Shown here: one piece after another, positions 33,280 to 43,049 of the stretch
Layout: the number at the start of each line of letters is the position of its first letter
How positions within the stretch are numbered: position 1 is the stretch's first letter
Assembly (NCBI RefSeq): GCF_019904295.1
Contig: NZ_CP065359.1
Coordinates: forward strand, 1,203,001 to 1,267,000
DNA from: Ruegeria sp. SCSIO 43209
GTDB taxonomy: Bacteria > Pseudomonadota > Alphaproteobacteria > Rhodobacterales > Rhodobacteraceae
Direction: 5' to 3'
DNA: 64,000 bases
The notes under the pieces: model-generated
Seen by the model: the letters and a program-made list of their open reading frames with translations, nothing else
Databases searched by the model: none
Told to the model about the DNA's origin: nothing
Made by a program: the position numbers and the translations under genes

Positions 33280-33385
33280 CGCGGCACCCTGCCGCACTCT
33301 CTTATTGTCAGACAATTGAATTCTTGGCAGGGTTGTTGCCAAGACATAACGGCGCGGCCAAGCGCTGACGATGGGAGGAATGTCC

Positions 33386-35005
33386 ATGCTGGGACAGATG
33401 ATGACGCAGCCTTTGCTGATTTCGTCGCTGATTGAACATGCTGAACGTTATCACGGGCAGACCGAGATCATCTCGGTCGAAACCGACGGAACCGTGACCG
33501 AGACCAACTGGTCCGGGATCGCGCAGAACGCCCGACGGATGGCTTCGGCGTTAGAGAAACTGGGGCTGCAACCGCAGGATCGCGTGGGCACGCTGGCCTG
33601 GAATAACCGCCGCCACCTTGAGATCTACTATGCGGTGTCCGGCGCGGGCTTTGTCTGCCACACGATCAACCCGCGTCTGTTTCCCGAACAACTAACCTAT
33701 ATCATCAACCACGCGCAGGACCGTGTCCTGTTCTTCGATGCGACTTTCCTGCCATTGGTCGCCGCGCTGCAAGAGCATCTGACCGAGGTGCAGTACTATG
33801 TGCTGATGGGTGCGCGGGACGAGGCTGCGCTGTCTCAGGTGCCGGGGTTGGTTTTTTATGACGAGCTCATTGAAACCGGTGATACAGACTACGCGTGGCC
33901 CAGCTTTGATGAAAACACTGCCTCCAGCCTCTGTTATACTTCGGGTACCACTGGGAACCCCAAAGGCGTTCTCTATTCCCACCGCTCTACAGTTCTGCAT
34001 AGCTTCGCGTCGAACACGCGCGACGTAATCGGCTATTCCGCCATGGATGTGGTGATGCCGGTGGTGCCAATGTTCCACGTCAACGCTTGGGGCTCGCCCT
34101 ATGCCAGCGCTATGTCTGGTTCGCGAATGGTGATGCCGGGGCCGGGATTGCATGGCGAGGCATTGGTCAATCTGATCGACACATATGGCGTCACGCTGGC
34201 GATGGGCGTACCGACCATTTGGCAAGGTCTGCTGGCCCATGCCGCGACATGCGGGACCAAGTTGAAAAGCCTCAATCGTACTGTAATCGGTGGTGCGGCA
34301 TGCCCGCCCTCAATGATTGAAACGTTCCGCGAAACCTATGGCGTCGATACCGTCCACGCCTGGGGCATGAGCGAAATGAGCCCGCTGGGCACGACGAATT
34401 ATCCGATGGCCAAACATCTGGACATGCCCATGGAAGCACAGCACAAGCTGCGCGAAAACCAAGGCCGCCCGCCCTTTGGGGTTGAACTAAAAATAGTCGA
34501 TGATGATGGCAGAGATCTTCCCCATGACGGTGAAACGCAGGGCGATCTGATGGTGCGCGGCCATTGGGTTCTGGACAGTTATTTCCACATGCAGGACGAG
34601 GACTTGTTGCAAGATGGCTGGTTCGCGACTGGCGACGTTGCAACACTGGACCCAGATGGGTTCATGACCATCCGCGACCGGTCGAAAGATATCATCAAAT
34701 CGGGGGGTGAATGGATCAGCTCTGTCGAGTTGGAGAATATCGCCGTCGCACACCCTCAACTCGCGACGGCTGCCGTTGTGGGTGTGCCGCATCCGAAATG
34801 GGACGAACGCCCGCTCTTGGTAGCAGTGAAGGCCGAGGGCGAAGAACCGACCGAGCAGGATTTGTTGGCATTCTTCGACGGCAAAATCGCAAAATGGCAG
34901 GTACCCGACAAGGTCGTGTTCGTTGATGCCTTGCCCCTTAACGCGACCGGAAAGGTCCTGAAACGCACGTTGCGCTCGGATTTCAGTGATGCGCTGATGG
35001 GATAA
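33386..35005 (+). CDS. Acyl-CoA ligase, DmdB-like (3-methylmercaptopropionyl-CoA ligase family)
   Basis: Adenylates a short or medium carboxylate and makes the CoA thioester. 539 residues from ATG 33386, five bases after GGGAGGAA. Motifs: P-loop [15 protein letters not shown] (about 187-201), A5 [30 protein letters not shown] and catalytic Lys in NATGKVLKR. The N-terminus [20 protein letters not shown] closely matches my recollection of Ruegeria DmdB, the second enzyme of DMSP demethylation; DmdA, DmdC and DmdD are not in the window. A general fatty acid-CoA ligase is the alternative. Confidence 0.85.
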
Positions 35006-35023: not shown

Positions 35024-35098
35024 TGGCTCCGGCGGTAGGGATCGAACCTACGACCAATTGATTAACAGTCAACTGCTCTACCGCTGAGCTACGCCGGA
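35024..35098 (-). tRNA. tRNA-Asn (anticodon GTT), copy 1
   Basis: A 75-nt cloverleaf including an encoded CCA. On the minus strand: acceptor TCCGGCG / CGCCGGA, D arm TAGCTCAGCGGTAGAGC, anticodon arm TTGACTGTTAATCAA with GTT, T arm GTAGGTTCGATCCCTAC. Identical to the copy at 41987-42061. Confidence 0.97.
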
Positions 35099-35110
35099 AC
35101 TGAGGGGCGT
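35024..35110. repeat. 87-bp direct repeat, left copy
   Basis: The tRNA-Asn gene plus 12 bp of its 5' flank (ACTGAGGGGCGT) is repeated base for base, in the same orientation, at 41987-42073. The match ends abruptly on both sides. The two copies bound the frc sugar-transport module. Confidence 0.95.
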
Positions 35111-35445
35111 GTATCAACAGGTAAAGTGGAGGTCCAGATGCAAAAACGTTTTTTTGTGGGTGAAGTGCACGGCCTCTCATCTAATTCGGAGGCGACTCAG
35201 TGTGGACCTTCCCTAATAGCGTAGCCAACGGCCTATTTGAGCCCGCTTCGACCAATGCTGCGCGATGCTCCAATGACATCAATGCGCAGGAAGCCGACGT
35301 CGGCCGCTTTCGAGGCGGCCTAAAGCAGTGCACTGTTACCCAATTGGATGGCTACCTGCAGTTGAGTCAGAGCGGCCGTTCTAAGGCCCCCAAATTGAGT
35401 AGGAGCGGTTCTTACTTGATTAAGACTGCCCCCTATGAGTTTCGA
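35111..35445. other. Gene-poor left end of the island
   Basis: 335 bp without a convincing gene. Two similar segments, GAGCGGCCGTTCT (about 35370) and GAGCGGTTCTTAC (about 35402), and a GGCCGCTTTCGAGGCGGCC palindrome-like stretch near 35301 look like decayed intergenic repeats. No promoter or RNA gene identified. Confidence 0.5.
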
Positions 35446-36657
35446 CTACATCCCAGAAAGCCCAGCATTAGTGTTCAATAGAAACTGGCGGAAAATCGGG
35501 CTGCTTGCCGCCCCAATCCCGCGGGCGTTTTCTCCGACAGCCGCAGCTTCTACAACCGGAGGAATCAAACCGCGTTTATCTTGGTTGACTAGGTAACGAC
35601 GAACCCGTGAGACCAGCTCCTCACGTATTTCAGATGGGAATGCGCCGTCGATAAAAATTGCCTCAAAGTCGATGACCGCGCAAATAGACAGCGCAGCTTT
35701 GGCCAGTTCCTGCGCGGTGGTACCGATCCATGGTTCGACATAGCGCGAAATGCCGCTCCAGTCCTGCGGCTTTTTCCACAAAATTCCCGGATCAACACCC
35801 GCTTCTATCAACCTGTCCTCGAGCAGGAACAGCGATGCAGTGTCAATCAGTTGCTGGCTTTCACCCAAAGGACCCGTCGTCCGCATGGCACCCAAGGCAC
35901 CGGCATTGCCTTGGTTGCCCTCAAATACGGTGCCATTCAATGCAACGCCTCCGCCAATCATTGAGCCTATGAAGAAATAAAAATAGTCTCGATACTCAGC
36001 CCCGCGGCCATAGAGGTGCTCCGCGTGACACGCGGCAGTAGCATCATTGACCACAAAGACCGGCAGTTCGCTGAACTTGGCCACCTCGGAAAAGAAGTTC
36101 ACGTTTCTCCAGGACCTGAATTTCTGAGCCGCAAGCCCAGAAAGGTCGTGCCACTTCCACAGCTCGAACGGTGTTCCGATTCCAATCCCGCATACACGGT
36201 CCCGAAGTTTCTGGGGTTCATTGGCCAGAAGCTCTTCCAATCCTACCTCCAGAAACCCGAACACTGCTTCGGGTAGCGGGTAGTCATAAGTCGTCGAGAG
36301 CTGTTGGCGTGGCTTACCGGTGAAGTCGATCAAAAGAAGATCGGCGCTGCGGCGACCGATCTTCATTCCCACCGACAGAATGCCTTCGGGATTGAGCTCC
36401 ATGGGGATCGAAGGTTTCCCAACTTTGCCCTTCAACGGCGTCCCACGTTTGAGAATCTCGTCCTTTTCGAGCTTACGCAGAATGATCGACACGGTCTGGG
36501 GTGACAGGCCCGTCAGCCGCGCGACGTCCGCCCCGGCAGCAGGTCCATGCCGTTGTAAAACCGTCAGAATGAGGCGTTCGTTATGATCACGAACACCGCT
36601 TTGGCTTACCCCGCCGGTTAGTATTTTCAACGCCTCTCTTTCCATAACCTTAAACAT
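35446..36657 (-). CDS. ROK-family transcriptional repressor of the sugar operon
   Basis: About 403 residues. An N-terminal winged helix (LILTVLQRHGPAAGADVARL, then SPQTVSIILRKLEKDEIL) precedes a ROK sugar-kinase-like domain (VVNDATAACHAEHLYG, then GSMIGGGVALNGTVFEGNQG). The kinase-fold cysteines of the usual ROK zinc motif are not obvious, so this looks like a sugar-sensing regulator rather than an enzyme. Divergent from frcB, it probably represses the transporter until its sugar is present, as for NagC/XylR-type proteins. The start is unclear: GTG 36663, ATG 36657 (AAGGTG just upstream) or ATG 36645. Confidence 0.85.
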   Translation of the reverse strand: MFKVMEREALKILTGGVSQSGVRDHNERLILTVLQRHGPAAGADVARLTGLSPQTVSIILRKLEKDEILKRGTPLKGKVGKPSIPMELNPEGILSVGMKIGRRSADLLLIDFTGKPRQQLSTTYDYPLPEAVFGFLEVGLEELLANEPQKLRDRVCGIGIGTPFELWKWHDLSGLAAQKFRSWRNVNFFSEVAKFSELPVFVVNDATAACHAEHLYGRGAEYRDYFYFFIGSMIGGGVALNGTVFEGNQGNAGALGAMRTTGPLGESQQLIDTASLFLLEDRLIEAGVDPGILWKKPQDWSGISRYVEPWIGTTAQELAKAALSICAVIDFEAIFIDGAFPSEIREELVSRVRRYLVNQDKRGLIPPVVEAAAVGENARGIGAASSPIFRQFLLNTNAGLSGM

Positions 36658-36697
36658 AAACACCTTGTTTTCTTATGAAAAGATACGTGGGCAAATT

Positions 36698-36718
36698 AAT
36701 AAATAAACTTTATTTATT
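36698..36718. promoter_or_regulatory. AT-rich palindrome, probable ROK operator
   Basis: AATAAATAAA-C-TTTATTTATT is a perfect 10-bp inverted repeat in the frcB promoter region, 40 bp from the regulator's start. A TTGACA at 36721 directly adjoins it and TAGAAT lies at 36734, though their spacing to each other is wrong for one promoter. NagC/Mlc-type ROK repressors bind similar TTATTT/AAATAA sites. Confidence 0.6.
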
Positions 36719-36831
36719 TATTGACACAGAGGCTAGAATCACGGTTTCTTGAACGGGACCTTCATTGGAGGATGGAGGCCCGCCTTGTCGCTATTCCGCG
36801 CGGGGCCACAACAATTTTCTGGGAGGACAAC

Positions 36832-37851
36832 ATGAGAAATCTACTCAAGCTCGCCGCATCCGCGACTGCGCTGACTTTGGCCGCTGCATCCGCGCAAGCG
36901 GCTGGTGAAACCGTCTGCCTGATTACCAAGACCGACACCAACCCCTTTTTCGTTAAGATGAAGGAAGGCGCAACCGCCAAGGCAGAAGAGCTGGGCATGA
37001 CGCTCAAGGCGTTTGCCGGCAAGGTTGATGGCGACCATGAAACTCAGGTTCAGGCCATTGAAACCTGCATTCTCGATGGCGCAAAAGGCATTCTGCTGAC
37101 AGCATCCGACACCAGCTCAATCGTTCCTGCGGTCAAACAGGCGCGGGATGCGGGGGTTTTGGTCATTGCGCTGGATACTCCGCTTAGCCCGATTGACTCA
37201 GCGGACGCGACATTCGCGACGGACAACTACAAGGCCGGCCTTCTGATCGGTCAATGGGCCAAGGCCAAAATGGGCGACGCCGCAGCCGATGCCAAGATCG
37301 CGACGCTGGATCTGAACGTCAGTCAGCCGACAGTAGACGTTCTGCGCAATCAGGGTTTCCTCGACGGGTTCGGCGTGGACCTGGCGGACCCGAATGTCAT
37401 CGGTGACGAAACCGATGCGCGTCTGGTTGGCAGTGACGTGACCGACGGCAATGAAGAAGGCGGGCGCCGCGCGATGGAAAACCTTTTGGCCAAGGATTCA
37501 TCCATCAACGTTGTTCACACGATCAACGAACCGGCTGCTGCGGGCGCATATGAGGCGCTGAAATCCATCGGGCGTGAAAACGACGTACTGATCGTTTCGG
37601 TCGACGGGGGGTGCCCCGGTGTCCAAAACGTCGAAGCCGGTGTGATCGGGGCGACAAGCCAACAGTACCCGCTGTTGATGGCCTCGCTTGGGGTTGAGGC
37701 CGTGAAAAAATGGGCCGAAGAGGGCGTGAAGCCCGAAAACACACCCGGCAAAGACTTCTATGACACGGGTGTGGCACTCATCACCGACCAGCCGGTTGAT
37801 GGGGTCGAGTCGCTGTCTGTCGCAGAAGGCCTGGATCTCTGCTGGGGCTAA
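36832..37851 (+). CDS. frcB: Sugar ABC transporter substrate-binding protein, FrcB-like
   Basis: A periplasmic binding protein that captures fructose-type sugars. 339 residues with a signal peptide ([18 protein letters not shown]). The fold is the ribose/xylose-binding type: [43 protein letters not shown] and [11 protein letters not shown]. The order of genes and sequence match the rhizobial FrcBCAK system as I recall it. ATG 36832 is preceded by GGGAGGA. A hairpin follows the stop. Confidence 0.9.
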
Positions 37852-37867
37852 AGGCAGCTCTATTAGG

Positions 37868-37889
37868 TGAGGCGCGCCGCAGCGCCTCA
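37868..37889 (+). other. Intercistronic hairpin between frcB and frcC
   Basis: TGAGGCGC-GCCGCA-GCGCCTCA, a perfect 8-bp stem with a 6-nt loop, 17 bp past the frcB stop and with no T-run. Such elements protect the 5' mRNA and allow more binding protein than permease to be made. Confidence 0.6.
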
Positions 37890-37968
37890 TCAATCCTTTC
37901 ACCAGCAAACCTAAACTTCCTGTAAACTGATTTCGTGGACGCGATGCCAGCCACGAAAAGGGGGAGAG

Positions 37969-39039
37969 ATGTCTGAAGCAAACCAAAACGCCCAGGAATT
38001 CGAAACCGCCGCCAACGCGTCAGAAACCGTAGCGGAATTTGAAGATCACCGTCGTGGTGTTCTGGGGAAGTTGCAGCATCTTCTCCATGTCAACCCTTCC
38101 TTTGTGCCGTTGATCGTTCTGGTTGGCGCCATCGTAATTTTCGGTCTGCTGCTGGGGTCCAAGTTCTTCTCACCCTTTGCGATGACGCTGATCTTGCAGC
38201 AAGTTCAGATCGTGGGCATCGTGGCCGCAGCGCAAAGCCTTGTCATTCTGACCGCCGGCATCGACTTGAGCGTCGGTGCGATCATGGTGTTTTCATCCGT
38301 CATCATGGGTCAGTTCACCTTCCGCTACGGTATCCCGGTGCCCATTGCTGTGATGTGCGGGCTGGCAATGGGAACGCTGATCGGGGCTCTCAATGGCTGG
38401 CTGGTCAGTCGCGTAAAGCTGCCGCCCTTTATTGTCACGCTCGGCATGTGGCAGATCGTTCTGGCGACAAACTTCCTGTATTCCGCAAACGAAACAATTC
38501 GCAGTCAGGATATCGAGGCCAACGCCCCGTTCCTGCAATTTTTTGGCACCAAATTCAGCGTCGGTGGCGCGACCTTCACGGTTGGCGTGATATTCATGCT
38601 CGTACTGATTTTCGTGTTGGCTTACGCGCTCAAACATACGGCCTGGGGCCGGCATGTCTATGCGGTGGGGGATGACCCTGAGGCGGCTGAACTATCCGGT
38701 GTGAACGTGCACAGAACGCTGATGTCCGTTTATATGTTATCCGGTTTGATCTGTGCATTTGCAGGCTGGGCCCTGATCGGGCGTATCGGGTCGGTTTCAC
38801 CTACATCCGGTCAGTTGGCCAATATCGAAAGCATCACCGCGGTAGTGATCGGGGGCATCTCTTTGTTCGGCGGGCGGGGATCCATCCTGGGATCGCTGTT
38901 TGGCGCGCTGATTGTTGGCGTGTTCACTTTGGGGCTAAGGCTTCTGGGCGCAGACGCACAATGGACCTTCTTACTTATCGGACTTCTCATTATCGCTGCG
39001 GTTGCCGTCGACCAGTGGATTAGAAAGGTATCGGGCTAA
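37969..39039 (+). CDS. frcC: Sugar ABC transporter permease, FrcC-like
   Basis: The inner-membrane channel of the importer; 356 residues with roughly ten transmembrane segments, of the RbsC/AraH family. Signature stretches: GIDLSVGAIMVFSSV (about 96-110), LPPFIVTLGMW, GISLFGGRGSILGS and the EAAxxxG-like AAELSGVNV loop that meets the ATPase. The N-terminus is polar and unusually long (about 40 residues). Its TAA overlaps the frcA ATG by one base. Confidence 0.92.
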   Translation: MSEANQNAQEFETAANASETVAEFEDHRRGVLGKLQHLLHVNPSFVPLIVLVGAIVIFGLLLGSKFFSPFAMTLILQQVQIVGIVAAAQSLVILTAGIDLSVGAIMVFSSVIMGQFTFRYGIPVPIAVMCGLAMGTLIGALNGWLVSRVKLPPFIVTLGMWQIVLATNFLYSANETIRSQDIEANAPFLQFFGTKFSVGGATFTVGVIFMLVLIFVLAYALKHTAWGRHVYAVGDDPEAAELSGVNVHRTLMSVYMLSGLICAFAGWALIGRIGSVSPTSGQLANIESITAVVIGGISLFGGRGSILGSLFGALIVGVFTLGLRLLGADAQWTFLLIGLLIIAAVAVDQWIRKVSG

Positions 39040-39821
39040 TGTCAGACTCAACTCCAGTCGTCCAAGGCCGCGGGATCGTAAAGCGTTATGGCCACGTTAC
39101 CGCCATCGACCATTCCGACTTTGAACTGCGCCAGGGGGAAATCCTGGCAGTGATCGGAGATAATGGCGCGGGCAAATCATCCATCGTGAAGGCGATCTGC
39201 GGCGCCACAATCCCGGATGAAGGCGAGATTCTGATCGAGGGCAAAAAGGTTAACTTCAGCTCTCCGATCGATGCGCGGAATATGGGGATCGAGATTGTCT
39301 ATCAGCAGCTCGCCATGTCTCCTGCCCTTTCGATTGCGGACAACATGTTCATGGGGCGCGAAATCCGCAAGCAGGGGTTCATGGGCAAATACATGCGTAA
39401 GCTTGACCGTCCAGCGATGGAGAAGTTTGCCCGAGAAAAACTGACCGAGCTTGGGCTGATGACTGTACAGTCGATCAATCAGGCGGTTGAGACTCTTTCT
39501 GGTGGCCAACGCCAAGGTGTTGCCGTTGCTCGTGCCGCTGCCTTTGCAACCAAGTTTATCATCATGGACGAACCGACGGCTGCTTTGGGAGTCAAGGAAA
39601 GCCGAAAGGTGCTCGAACTGATCCAGGACGTGCGTGCCCGCGGCATTCCGATCATCCTGATCAGCCACAACATGCCTCATGTTTTTGAGGTTGCCGACCG
39701 CATTCATGTGCATCGGTTGGGCAAAAGGCTCTGCACAATTGATCCCAAGGATTACACGATGTCCGATGCAGTCGCCTTCATGACCGGTGCCAAGGAACCC
39801 CCAAAAGAGGACGCAGCGTGA
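39039..39821 (+). CDS. frcA: Sugar ABC transporter ATPase, FrcA-like
   Basis: The single-domain ATPase of the importer: Walker A GDNGAGKS (40-47), signature LSGGQRQG (about 151-158), Walker B IIMDEPTAALG and the switch His in LISHNMPH. At 260 residues it is half the size of two-domain RbsA/XylG ATPases, as in FrcA. Overlaps frcC by 1 bp and frcK by a GTGA. Confidence 0.94.
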   Translation: MSDSTPVVQGRGIVKRYGHVTAIDHSDFELRQGEILAVIGDNGAGKSSIVKAICGATIPDEGEILIEGKKVNFSSPIDARNMGIEIVYQQLAMSPALSIADNMFMGREIRKQGFMGKYMRKLDRPAMEKFAREKLTELGLMTVQSINQAVETLSGGQRQGVAVARAAAFATKFIIMDEPTAALGVKESRKVLELIQDVRARGIPIILISHNMPHVFEVADRIHVHRLGKRLCTIDPKDYTMSDAVAFMTGAKEPPKEDAA

Positions 39822-40489
39822 TCGAGCAGGACGTACAGCGCGTTTGCGACCTGATCTCCTCCCGGCGGCAAGTTGGAGTCCGGACGATTATCGCAATCGC
39901 CGGTCCCCCTGCATCCGGAAAGTCGACCTTAGCGGATGCCGTTGTGCAATCGCTGAACACGCAACAGAGCTCGGCGGTTCCCTCAGCCACACTTGTACCA
40001 ATGGATGGTTACCATTTGGACAACTGCGTGCTGGAAACGCGTGGATTGCTGGCGAGAAAAGGCGCGCCAGAGACTTTCGACGGGGTCGGGTTTTGCGCTG
40101 CAATCAGAGAGCTTCAATTTACGCGCCACGAGTCCTTTCATCCCAAATTCGACCGCACAATGGACCTCGCTATTGCCAACGCCATTGCGGTTCACCCGGC
40201 AACTCCGGTCGTCGTCGTTGAGGGTAACTATCTTCTGATGGACAGCGACCCGTGGAGAAACCTGACGGATGTCTATGCCGCAACGGTTTTTATCAGCCCA
40301 ACTTTGGAAGAGCTTGAAAACAGGCTGCAAAACCGCTGGATCAGCCATGGCTTTGACCCGCAAACCGCGCTGCAACGCGCAATAGCGAACGATCTGCCAA
40401 ACGCTGAACGTGTCATCCGTGATAGCCGGAAAGCCGATCTTATACTGAGCCAGAACTACACTGAATTCGGGATGCGCAACGCATTCTGA
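39818..40489 (+). CDS. frcK: FrcK-like P-loop kinase
   Basis: A 223-residue P-loop kinase of the uridine-kinase/pantothenate-kinase-like group: Walker A AGPPASGKST (28-37), the DGYHLD motif near 65-70 and VVVEGNYLLM. FrcK is encoded with the fructose importer in Sinorhizobium, where its own substrate is not settled; phosphorylation of the incoming sugar is the obvious inference. It begins with GTG inside the frcA stop (4-bp overlap). Confidence 0.88.
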   Translation: MIEQDVQRVCDLISSRRQVGVRTIIAIAGPPASGKSTLADAVVQSLNTQQSSAVPSATLVPMDGYHLDNCVLETRGLLARKGAPETFDGVGFCAAIRELQFTRHESFHPKFDRTMDLAIANAIAVHPATPVVVVEGNYLLMDSDPWRNLTDVYAATVFISPTLEELENRLQNRWISHGFDPQTALQRAIANDLPNAERVIRDSRKADLILSQNYTEFGMRNAF

Positions 40490-40582
40490 ATCTGCGCACT
40501 GGCTTCAGCCAACCCTTGATACAGTGCCTCTAGGCAGCCTCAGGTGCAACCCAAGTCACCCCTTACGCAATGAGGAAACCTC

Positions 40583-41236
40583 ATGAAATTCTTCGTGGAC
40601 ACCGCAGAAGTAAACGACATCAAAGACCTGATGGGTTTCGGATTATTGGATGGCGTGACCACCAATCCAAGCTTGATCGCCAAGTCCGGTCGCGATTTCA
40701 AAGAGGTCATTGCAGAAATTTGCACTCTGACGGATACGCCAGTATCGGCAGAGGTTGCAGCGTCGGATGCTGCGGGAATGATCGCAGAGGGAGTGCACCT
40801 CGCGGCGATCGCAGACAACGTCGTTGTCAAACTGCCGCTGACATTGGATGGCCTCAGGGCCTGTGCTCATTTCAAAAGTGAAGGTATCAGAACAAACGTC
40901 ACACTGTGCTTTTCACCCAATCAGGCTCTCTTGGCGGCAAAGGCTGGCGCTACCTATATATCTCCGTTCATTGGCAGATTGGATGACATCAATCTGGACG
41001 GAGTCAATCTGATCCGTGACATCCGTAGCATTTACGACAACTATAGTATTGAAACTGAAATCATTGCGGCATCCGTCAGAAGCCCCAATCATATTACAGA
41101 GGTGGCACTGGCCGGTTCCGACATCGCCACGATCCCGCCGTCCGTTATTCGCAAACTGATCATGCATCCATTGACCGATATCGGCATCGAGAAGTTTCTC
41201 AATGATTGGAATTCGACTGGGCAATCGATCCTTTGA
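40583..41236 (+). CDS. Short transaldolase / fructose-6-phosphate aldolase-like
   Basis: A 217-residue TIM barrel. The Schiff-base lysine is Lys83 in [10 protein letters not shown], and the N-terminal [13 protein letters not shown] and [13 protein letters not shown] are typical of the small TalC/Fsa group. It either transfers dihydroxyacetone units (transaldolase) or cleaves fructose 6-phosphate; residues that separate the two cannot be judged by eye. 93 bp after frcK, with its own GAGGAAA, it probably completes the fructose-use cassette. Confidence 0.88.
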
Positions 41237-41986
41237 TGGATTGCCAACTCGATTGGGGAGGAGCGACCTGTCCCAAATGATTTACCTCTAAGCGGCACTG
41301 CTGCATTTTAAGAAATAAGGTCTCAAGGAGAGTCTTTCTGCTTTGTCAAGTACGTCGAGCTTTGTGGAAAACCGTCGTCACTCCTCACTATTGGCGGGAT
41401 GAACACTAAGGCAACGGCAGACCAATATAAGGTCAACGGTAGGAAAATGGCTAGAGCAATCGGCGAGGTCGCGGCGAAATTCCGGTTTGACCTTGGCAGC
41501 CAGGCGCCTTCATTTCATAGTGTCATCTTCCCGTAAACGTCCGCTTTCACTCCCGTGCCAATTACCTTTGGCGTCTCCAGGGAATAACAGCTTTCCGTCC
41601 GCCGTATTTGTTGCCTCGGTCGCAAAGTGCACAAAGCGGACGTTCCGCCGGAAAACTTTGACAGCAGCTTTGTCGGCAAAGTAGCCCTCCGCTCGGGCGA
41701 AAGTAAACGACCGGCTTCCTCGTTTCCAGATGTTCGCGAAAGGTGCCGCAAACATCAGCTTTGAGGTAGCCTATGATCGATTGATCTCGAATCAATTGAC
41801 CTACCGATTTGCTCTGCCTGAAAATCAAGCAATAACAGCCGGTTGCTGGCTGAATGGTGGTTTTGCTGGGAGCTGTTGTCACTTCATTGCCACCTGATTC
41901 TTGGCAACAAACTGGCAACACGGCCCTACATTCCTTCCCCTAAATGCGAGGCTTTCCATTAAGTCTATGATCTAAATGTGGAAAAT
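41237..41986. other. Gene-poor right end of the island
   Basis: 750 bp with no convincing gene. An 11-bp inverted repeat, ACGTCCGCTTT (41537-41547) and AAAGCGGACGT (41633-41643), lies in the middle. Near the tRNA, TTGGCAACAAACTGGCAACA (about 41900-41921) repeats GGCAACA, the sort of repeat seen at integrase arms. Short open frames here match nothing I know. It may be the debris of an integration or a decayed gene. Confidence 0.5.
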
Positions 41987-42061
41987 TGGCTCCGGCGGTA
42001 GGGATCGAACCTACGACCAATTGATTAACAGTCAACTGCTCTACCGCTGAGCTACGCCGGA
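41987..42061 (-). tRNA. tRNA-Asn (anticodon GTT), copy 2
   Basis: Identical over all 75 nt, with encoded CCA, to the copy at 35024-35098. Its 3' end faces the island, whereas copy 1 presents its 5' end to it, as expected for a direct repeat. Confidence 0.97.
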
Positions 42062-42073
42062 ACTGAGGGGCGT
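41987..42073. repeat. 87-bp direct repeat, right copy
   Basis: Second copy of the tRNA-Asn plus ACTGAGGGGCGT repeat. Beyond it the flanks resemble each other only weakly (GTATCAACAGGTA versus ATAACAACCCGTA), which hints at an old, larger duplication of the tRNA promoter. Confidence 0.95.
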
Positions 42074-42134
42074 ATAACAACCCGTATTTTCGGCGTCCAG
42101 AGGGGAAGCGCACGGGCCGCCAATTTTTTCCGAT

Positions 42135-43049
42135 TCACGCGATGCGCTTGAAACGAGACGCAACTGACAGATCCCCCAAGGGCGCTACACGGGATCTGCC
42201 GGTCAGATCAACCAGATGGGCGAAGACATTACGCTCGGCCGCGGGAAGCAGCGCGGCGGGGGTTTCGATATAGATTCGCTGGGCAAGCTGTTGGGCCGTT
42301 TCTGGGCCATTTTCCAGGGCGTCGAGTATCTGTGATTCCCGCTGCAATCGGTGGTCTATCAGCCAATCCAGGCGCTTGGCAGGATTCGTGATAGGGGCAC
42401 CATGGCCCGGATGAAAAACCGACCACTCGCGCGCACGCAGGCGGCGACAGGCCGCCATGAAATCCGTCAGGTCTCCGTCCGGGGGCGAGACCAGAGAACT
42501 GGCCCAACCCATGACGTGATCAGCCGTAAAGCAGACATCCCCCCAGGCCAGCGCGATATGGTTGCCCAGATGGCCGGGTGTGTGGATCACTTCGAGTTGC
42601 CAGCCTTCTGCCGCGACGCGTTCACCGTCTTCAAGCTCGATATCAGGGCGGAAATCGGCATCGATTCCCTCACCACCTCCGGCAAGCCCGTTCTGGGCCA
42701 GCTCGGTCATGACTTCGCTGCGTCCAGCTTGCGGACCACCAAAAGCCAGAACCGGAGCGCCGGTGCGGGATGCGAGCGGGGCGGCCAAAGGCGAGTGATC
42801 CAGATGGGTGTGCGTAACAAATATGTGGCTGATCCGCTGCCCGGGTTCCAGCGCATCAACTATGGCTTGCAAATGGGCATCACTCAATGGCCCAGGGTCG
42901 ATGACAGCAATGTCCTTGTCGCCTAGAAGGTAGGTATTCGTACCACGATAAGTCATTGGCGAGGGATTGGGCGCAAGAATGCGCCTTAGCCCCGGGGCAA
43001 GCACGGCAACCTGTCCAGGGAGAGGGTTGAAATCGTCGGGGGCTTGCAT
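42135..43049 (-). CDS. Metallo-beta-lactamase-fold hydrolase, LACTB2-like
   Basis: A 304-residue hydrolase with the zinc motif HTHLDH (residues 80-85), further ligands in HTPGHLGNHI and the late Asp/His of FTADHVMGW and VFHPGHGAPI. The C-terminal helical extension after the MBL core (about 215-290) is as in LACTB2-type nucleases/thioesterases. Cytoplasmic; substrate unknown. Divergent from the histidine kinase by 44 bp. Confidence 0.88.
   Translation of the reverse strand: MQAPDDFNPLPGQVAVLAPGLRRILAPNPSPMTYRGTNTYLLGDKDIAVIDPGPLSDAHLQAIVDALEPGQRISHIFVTHTHLDHSPLAAPLASRTGAPVLAFGGPQAGRSEVMTELAQNGLAGGGEGIDADFRPDIELEDGERVAAEGWQLEVIHTPGHLGNHIALAWGDVCFTADHVMGWASSLVSPPDGDLTDFMAACRRLRAREWSVFHPGHGAPITNPAKRLDWLIDHRLQRESQILDALENGPETAQQLAQRIYIETPAALLPAAERNVFAHLVDLTGRSRVAPLGDLSVASRFKRIA

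Follow-up and report, generated by a model that had tools for sequence, protein, structure and literature searches.

The closest described counterparts of the locus treated here are variable segments bordered by tRNA genes or by direct repeats. The locus is a putative fructose-uptake (frc) cassette between two tRNA-Asn genes of Ruegeria sp. SCSIO 43209 (G000; G-numbers label genomes and L-numbers loci), whose genome is 4.6 Mb in size. The window, which is the whole stretch of 64,000 nucleotides that was analysed, covers positions 1203001-1267000 of its contig 1. Islands carrying tyrosine integrases also insert at a tRNA gene, the 3' end of which is their attachment site, and true cases are present at the same tRNA-Asn pair in G006, G067, and G070. 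In G000, however, both tRNA genes are whole, the interval contains neither a 45-48 bp 3' remnant nor an integrase, and the second tRNA has a foreign promoter. Replacement-type flexible islands flanked by tRNA genes share with this locus a strain-variable interval between conserved neighbours and recombination in the flanks, but, compared with those islands (PMC10872708), G000 has a single tRNA in two copies as its flanks, and the border lies within the tRNA. Tycheposons of Prochlorococcus and Methylophilaceae, as presented in that report, resemble it in the tRNA at the border and in the nutrient-uptake cargo, and in G000 a whole tRNA-Asn stands at both borders. The tyrosine recombinase that is their hallmark there is, in contrast, absent in G000 and is found only as a fragment in the occupant of G062. 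Small variable segments between direct repeats were also described (PMC2884548), together with variation in runs of tRNA genes; their repeats are mostly shorter than 30 bp, whereas G000 has repeats of 87 bp around a 6-kb operon. Relative to these kinds, an exchange between two intact tandem tRNA genes in which one tRNA promoter is brought in would be a new variant. Among the papers searched, we found none joining Ruegeria, a genomic island, and tRNA-Asn, which is no proof that the site is undescribed.

Results

In Ruegeria the tRNA-Asn genes form a tandem pair of old standing, which predates the insert. The genus set consisted of 54 genomes including G000, and the tRNA query matched all of them, G028 weakly. 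As G028 is 89% complete and gave only an 81% tRNA-like match, it was excluded, and counts are given over 53 genomes, the locus of the 52 others being compared with the proteins of the window. The interval is empty in 36/53 genomes, which have two tandem tRNA-Asn genes and a short spacer. This class comprises 34 genomes with a spacer of 117-142 bp, as well as G010 and G016. The locus of G010 (L043) has a 130-bp spacer and three tRNA-Asn copies, two of them parted only by a scaffold gap of Ns, and the third copy may be an assembly artefact; in G016, which was counted as empty, the second copy is cut by the contig end. Because two tRNA genes are present at empty sites, the cassette did not create the repeat. 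Other DNA of 0.8 to about 28 kb occupies the interval in 15 genomes. The remaining two are rearranged (G017, contig 11; G025, contig 1): copy A is separated from copy B, which lies on the opposite strand, by about 272 and 167 kb, respectively. This layout points to an inversion, one end of which lies at the tRNA pair.

The order of histidine kinase, metallo-beta-lactamase (MBL)-fold hydrolase, tRNA A, interval, tRNA B, coenzyme A (CoA) ligase, and isomerase is kept in most genomes. The MBL hydrolase adjoins copy A in all 53 genomes having the locus, and the CoA ligase is found at the locus in 51, in some of them behind extra inserted DNA or on a separate contig. In some empty genomes, integrase islands of about 15 kb (G006, G067) or about 2 kb of DNA (G035, G036) lie beyond B. 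The leaders of the two copies differ in most genomes: that of A ends in CGCCCCTCAGT or close forms, and that of B in CGGCGCGAACCGT or close forms, while copy A also has a B-like leader in G010, G013, G016, G027, G031, and G035. An exact pattern for a close pair matched 2/384 genomes of a family draw, one of them in this genus. Within the reach of that pattern, the tandem pair may therefore be nearly limited to Ruegeria.

In the window, ARAGORN found two tRNA-Asn(GTT) genes on the minus strand, and Rfam concurred (Table 1). Repeat search and both tRNA searches bore out the description in the first-pass annotation, a model's reading of the letters alone, of exact 87-bp repeats: the maximal repeat spans 35024-35110 and 41987-42073, each copy containing the whole tRNA-Asn and 12 bp upstream, and it is not due to chance. 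The same annotation held that the DNA beyond the repeats is not identical. The flanks do differ, yet they are not wholly unrelated; likeness extends over 122 nt at 90%, because the promoter regions of both tRNA copies are related.

In G000, native DNA gives way to foreign DNA at the second tRNA. The flanks were compared over 50 genomes for the upstream side of A and 49 for the two other flanks. Downstream of the second tRNA, G000 is closest to its sister G077 (88% over 60 bp), but upstream it is closest to G062 (87%) and G061 (85%) over 100 bp, the median being 58% (n=49). The 146 bp upstream of this tRNA, with a promoter of a third kind that we call C-type, had no match in the other 50 of the 54 genus genomes, and a pattern made from the promoter was found in the same four genomes (G000, G061, G062, and G008), each time at this locus. 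In a broader contig collection, from which G000 itself is possibly absent, it was found only in the three relatives. G000, G062, and G008 lack the native second promoter, as does G061 to the extent that its two overlapping contig ends reveal. The CoA ligase directly follows the C-type copy in G000, G062, and G008, and the same order is seen in G061 across a contig overlap of 55 bases. In a tree built from three neighbouring proteins with a quick method and supported by the Shimodaira-Hasegawa-like approximate likelihood-ratio test (SH-aLRT), the four carriers are scattered and require four changes for four rows; the rows of G017 and G031 lack the CoA ligase, and those of G006, G017, G031, and G067 lack the isomerase. 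The sisters and next kin of G000 (G015, G077, G003, G007, G014, and G068) have the native second promoter.

At the other end of the foreign segment, beside copy A, the stretch 41667..41986 is shared with G061 and G062 and had no match in G008 or elsewhere in the 54 genomes, although the inner part of the query matched two stretches of about 35 bp (G067, G014) as well as the tail of the cassette in G015. The two ends align over 146 and about 310 bp and vary by 16-28% between carriers, whereas the spacers of empty sites keep little past the promoter.

What lies between the conserved neighbours varies, as in replacement-type flexible islands, and the interval is a hot spot for accessory genes. 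The frc cassette occupies it in G000. Occupants elsewhere encode a methyltransferase (G002), an amidohydrolase (G008), a Hint-domain protein (G061), and a DUF4156 protein (G074), and those of G001, G011, and G015 have open reading frames (ORFs) with no Pfam match. The interval of G004 (L036:2695-9873, 7.4 kb) has a glycine-betaine-type ATP-binding cassette (ABC) transporter set with CNNM, SMP-30, and HxlR proteins, making it a second transport cassette at the same tRNA-Asn site. The occupant of G070 (L084) is a 14.8-kb integrase island with a 45-bp tRNA 3' end, and that of G062 (L124, L125) runs for about 27.6 kb to a contig end, with 359 bp on another contig, the two parts being unjoined. The occupants of G011 and G024 resemble each other at 89%, and that of G026 matches them at 75% over 591 bp; those of the sisters G015 and G077 have 971 bp in common at 80% and carry cargo other than that of G000 beside their native second promoter. 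Occupied and empty states require 8 changes on the tree.

The content of the cassette agrees with the first reading of the window. Pfam and TIGR00875 identified the ROK regulator, the frcBCAK-like genes, and the transaldolase, and by these family matches the Frc gene set of binding protein, permease, ATPase, kinase, and ROK regulator appears complete. The frcB-like ORF opens at 36721, and its probable start at 36832 was chosen from a ribosome-binding site. The transporter subunits match sugar ABC families and passed no substrate-specific cut-off among the NCBIfam families shown; their predicted specificity for fructose follows the annotation of relatives. The order of frcBCA and ROK is that of the frc fructose ABC transporter of rhizobia, which matches at 71% DNA identity, one record of the rhizobial type being annotated as frcC/frcB/frcA. 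Unlike there, the fsa gene joins the same block in G000, and the substrate is predicted from sequence. The gene-poor ends noted earlier are real, as one ORF tested in each (41562-41921 and 35200-35481) had no Pfam match. The label "DmdB-like" for the neighbouring ligase was fair, with 814.1 bits against the cut-off of 822 of NF005426 (3-(methylthio)propionyl-CoA ligase), narrowly missed.

Relatives of FrcA (E up to 1e-90) are found in 37/54 genus genomes. In the 36 others than G000 they lie on other contigs or distant from the tRNA pair; G062 has an unclosed interval, and its frc genes lie on a separate 22.7-kb contig that might belong there; frc at the tRNA-Asn pair is known only in G000. No Frc match was present in the tRNA-Asn regions fetched from 52 genomes, so that frc genes between the two tRNAs in all relatives, the arrangement that the first-pass annotation named as contrary to its proposal, are not what the genus has. 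The matching block on the R. conchae replicon lies on a plasmid of 787 kb and has common surroundings with that of G015. G005 is equally close (89.5% over 35371-40517), a further 18 frc loci show 75-83%, and five more 74-87%. Among 21 frc loci compared, shared stretches of more than 8 kb are limited to R. conchae and G015. The surroundings of the cassette (including those of L031:8001-13971) differ between nearly all the Ruegeria genomes compared, which indicates that it moves as a unit within the genus. The occupant of G062 contains blocks of 2.8 kb (90.5%) and 2.4 kb (88%) that flank frc on the R. conchae plasmid, namely NhaC-GlxA and NAD(P)H-binding-EamA-MarR, present without frc and one of them inverted, and also a 3.1-kb block (82%) that adjoins frc in G020. 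These blocks suggest that two of the four C-type occupants hold pieces of one accessory neighbourhood. A search of the G000 genome for the plasmid neighbourhood of the cassette gave only stretches of 72-76% elsewhere and a single match of 47 bp at 83%, and thus revealed no scar that a transfer from a plasmid might have left.

Traces of a recombinase were also recorded. The left end contains three TTGCCA/TGGCAA repeats, possibly recombinase arm sites, and an imperfect palindrome like the middle of tRNA-Asn. Compared with shuffled sequences (5 shuffles for long stretches, 20 for short), the palindrome scored 17.5 against 10.5 in 20 shuffles in G062 but was not above the shuffles in G061 (13.0 against 14.5). 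The occupant of G062 has a phage-integrase-type fragment, seemingly of a broken recombinase, that scores 26.4 bits (cut-off 27.1); its DNA relatives, located on Phaeobacter and Sulfitobacter plasmids, carry the annotation of tyrosine recombinases. By Pfam, no recombinase or integrase domain was detected in G000, either in the six proteins of the cassette or in the two ORFs tested at its ends, nor was a recombinase domain found among the ORFs tested in the occupants of G061 and G008. The G000 interval contains no partial tRNA 3' copy, the best matches being 18.0 and 17.5 (G000 and G062) against 45-47 in G006, G067, and G070. The integrase islands of about 15 kb in these three genomes (L038, L081, and L084, respectively) lie at the same tRNA-Asn genes and have tRNA 3' ends of 45-48 bp. 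That of G067 encodes a C-5 cytosine methylase.

Table 1. Coordinates of the features at the tRNA-Asn pair, as positions in the window
Feature	Position	Strand	Evidence
CoA ligase, conserved neighbour on the side opposite to the MBL hydrolase	33371..35005	+	Pfam AMP-binding
tRNA-Asn, second copy; upstream foreign, downstream native	35024..35098	-	ARAGORN; chimeric flanks
Right end of foreign segment; C-type tRNA promoter ~35108-35137	35099..35244	-	84% G062, 82% G061, 75% over 76 bp G008
frc cassette as homology block (cargo)	35446..41412	+	89% to R. conchae plasmid NZ_CP081104 and to G015, full stretch
ROK-family regulator	35446..36663	-	Pfam ROK, HTH_24
frcB-like sugar-binding protein	36832..37851	+	Pfam Peripla_BP_4
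frcC-like permease	37969..39039	+	Pfam BPD_transp_2
frcA-like ATPase	39039..39821	+	Pfam ABC_tran
frcK-like kinase, PRK family	39818..40489	+	Pfam PRK, 22.0 at cut-off 22.0
Fructose-6-phosphate aldolase/transaldolase (fsa)	40583..41236	+	TIGR00875, 299.7 bits, cut-off 245.95
Left end of foreign segment, beside copy A	41667..41986	-	73% G061 over 310 columns; 72% G062 over 126 bp
Imperfect palindrome like the middle of tRNA-Asn, left end	41770..41821	.	18.0 vs maximum 12.5 in 5 shuffles
Three recombinase-arm-like repeats (TTGCCA, TTGCCA, TGGCAA), left end	41887..41918	.	No other cluster of three (within 36 nt) occurs in the 64-kb window
tRNA-Asn(GTT) copy A, native	41987..42061	-	ARAGORN; A-type leader as in relatives
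Native promoter region of copy A	42062-42131		
MBL-fold hydrolase, conserved neighbour upstream of the tRNA pair	42135..43049	-	Pfam Lactamase_B

Discussion

With modest confidence, we consider that the native interval and the second promoter of G000 were probably replaced by a transferable frc segment through crossovers inside the tRNA genes. Such a segment would carry the frc cassette and end in its own tRNA-Asn promoter, and the native promoter of the second tRNA would be lost along with the replaced interval. The identical bodies of the two tRNA genes would serve as homology arms, and with crossovers inside them both tRNAs would stay whole and their count would stay at two. The agent may be homologous recombination by double crossover, to which the border at the second tRNA fits, as in exchange of the replacement type, and the cassette may have entered the segment from another replicon, e.g., a large Ruegeria plasmid. 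A double crossover would explain in one step the native DNA beyond the second tRNA, the foreign promoter, and the two copies. It is favoured for economy over insertion followed by loss, because the insertion of a circle and the loss of a copy are two steps. The earlier idea that the unit takes a tRNA copy with it survives in part, as a tRNA-Asn end with its own promoter seems to come with the segment.

Several observations weigh against the replacement that we prefer. A homology of 75-87 bp is short for efficient recombination. The A side of G000 is nearest to G003 (87%) and G068 (86%) but also to the unrelated G002 (86%), with a median of 76%, and is little informative. In G008 the right end is represented by its promoter part alone, and the left end is missing. 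A donor replicon bearing the ends was not found among plasmids, phages, viral contigs, and family genomes: the plasmid and phage matches listed cover the tRNA only, the C-type promoter pattern was not found in viral contigs, and the ends were not found in 393 other genomes of the family draw, where only two candidates per genome were scored, so that weakly related ends may have escaped; a match of 25 bp in G440 is regarded as chance. The repeat cluster, the tRNA-like palindrome, and the integrase fragment of G062 also count against it, and they lead to a possible, though doubtful, alternative, an integrative element that carries a tRNA. In its circle, a whole tRNA-Asn gene driven by a promoter of its own would be followed by binding sites for a recombinase. 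A tyrosine recombinase, either belonging to the element or borrowed, would insert the circle into A or B, and later recombination between neighbouring tRNAs would delete one copy and the spacer, the recombinase gene now being gone in G000. Besides these traces and the plasmid relatives of the fragment, the conserved ends with differing interiors in G000, G061, and G062 and the integrase islands at the same tRNAs speak for such an element. On the other hand, it requires an extra deletion in each of four genomes, no recombinase domain was seen in the tested ORFs of G000, G061, and G008, and the palindrome lies within the shuffle range in G061. Either homologous recombination or a lost integrase may have been the agent, and both readings would be compatible with a segment that originated as an element and now spreads by recombination.

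Two further explanations were weighed. The C-type promoter and the ends could be ancestral in the genus and lost in 49 other genomes, with only the cargo changed in G000; their divergence of 16-28% is an age that vertical descent would allow, but the four carriers are scattered on the tree, the sisters and next kin keep the native second promoter, and the ends align far beyond the little that empty-site spacers conserve past the promoter, which makes this improbable. The first-pass annotation proposed that a single ancestral tRNA-Asn was duplicated in full length when the cassette inserted, the repeats being its own boundaries, and expected one tRNA-Asn at an empty site. The exactness of the repeat and the leader CGCCCCTCAGT, in which both copies end upstream, speak for it. 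However, two copies stand at empty sites, the second with a distinct promoter, which rules out a duplication by the cassette, and in G008 and G061 the second copy and the local copy A have different leaders, so that in these kin the shared leader is no fresh copy; we give this proposal almost no credence. The same difference in leaders rules out a local copy of A as the source of the second promoter.

More speculatively, there could be in Ruegeria a recombinase-free family of mobile segments that end in a complete, promoter-bearing tRNA-Asn and swap the whole interval between the tandem tRNA-Asn genes, the housekeeping pair being a natural exchange site for cassettes that never costs the host a tRNA. 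As a caution, a cassette bordered by exact tRNA repeats does not necessarily lie between duplicated attachment sites, since the pair here predates the insert. If the replacement that we favour is correct, Ruegeria, a common marine genus, would have in its tandem tRNA pair a chromosomal swap site for metabolic cassettes with the tRNA dosage kept, and the cassettes that come and go would include sugar uptake, as in G000, and a glycine-betaine-type ABC set, as in G004.

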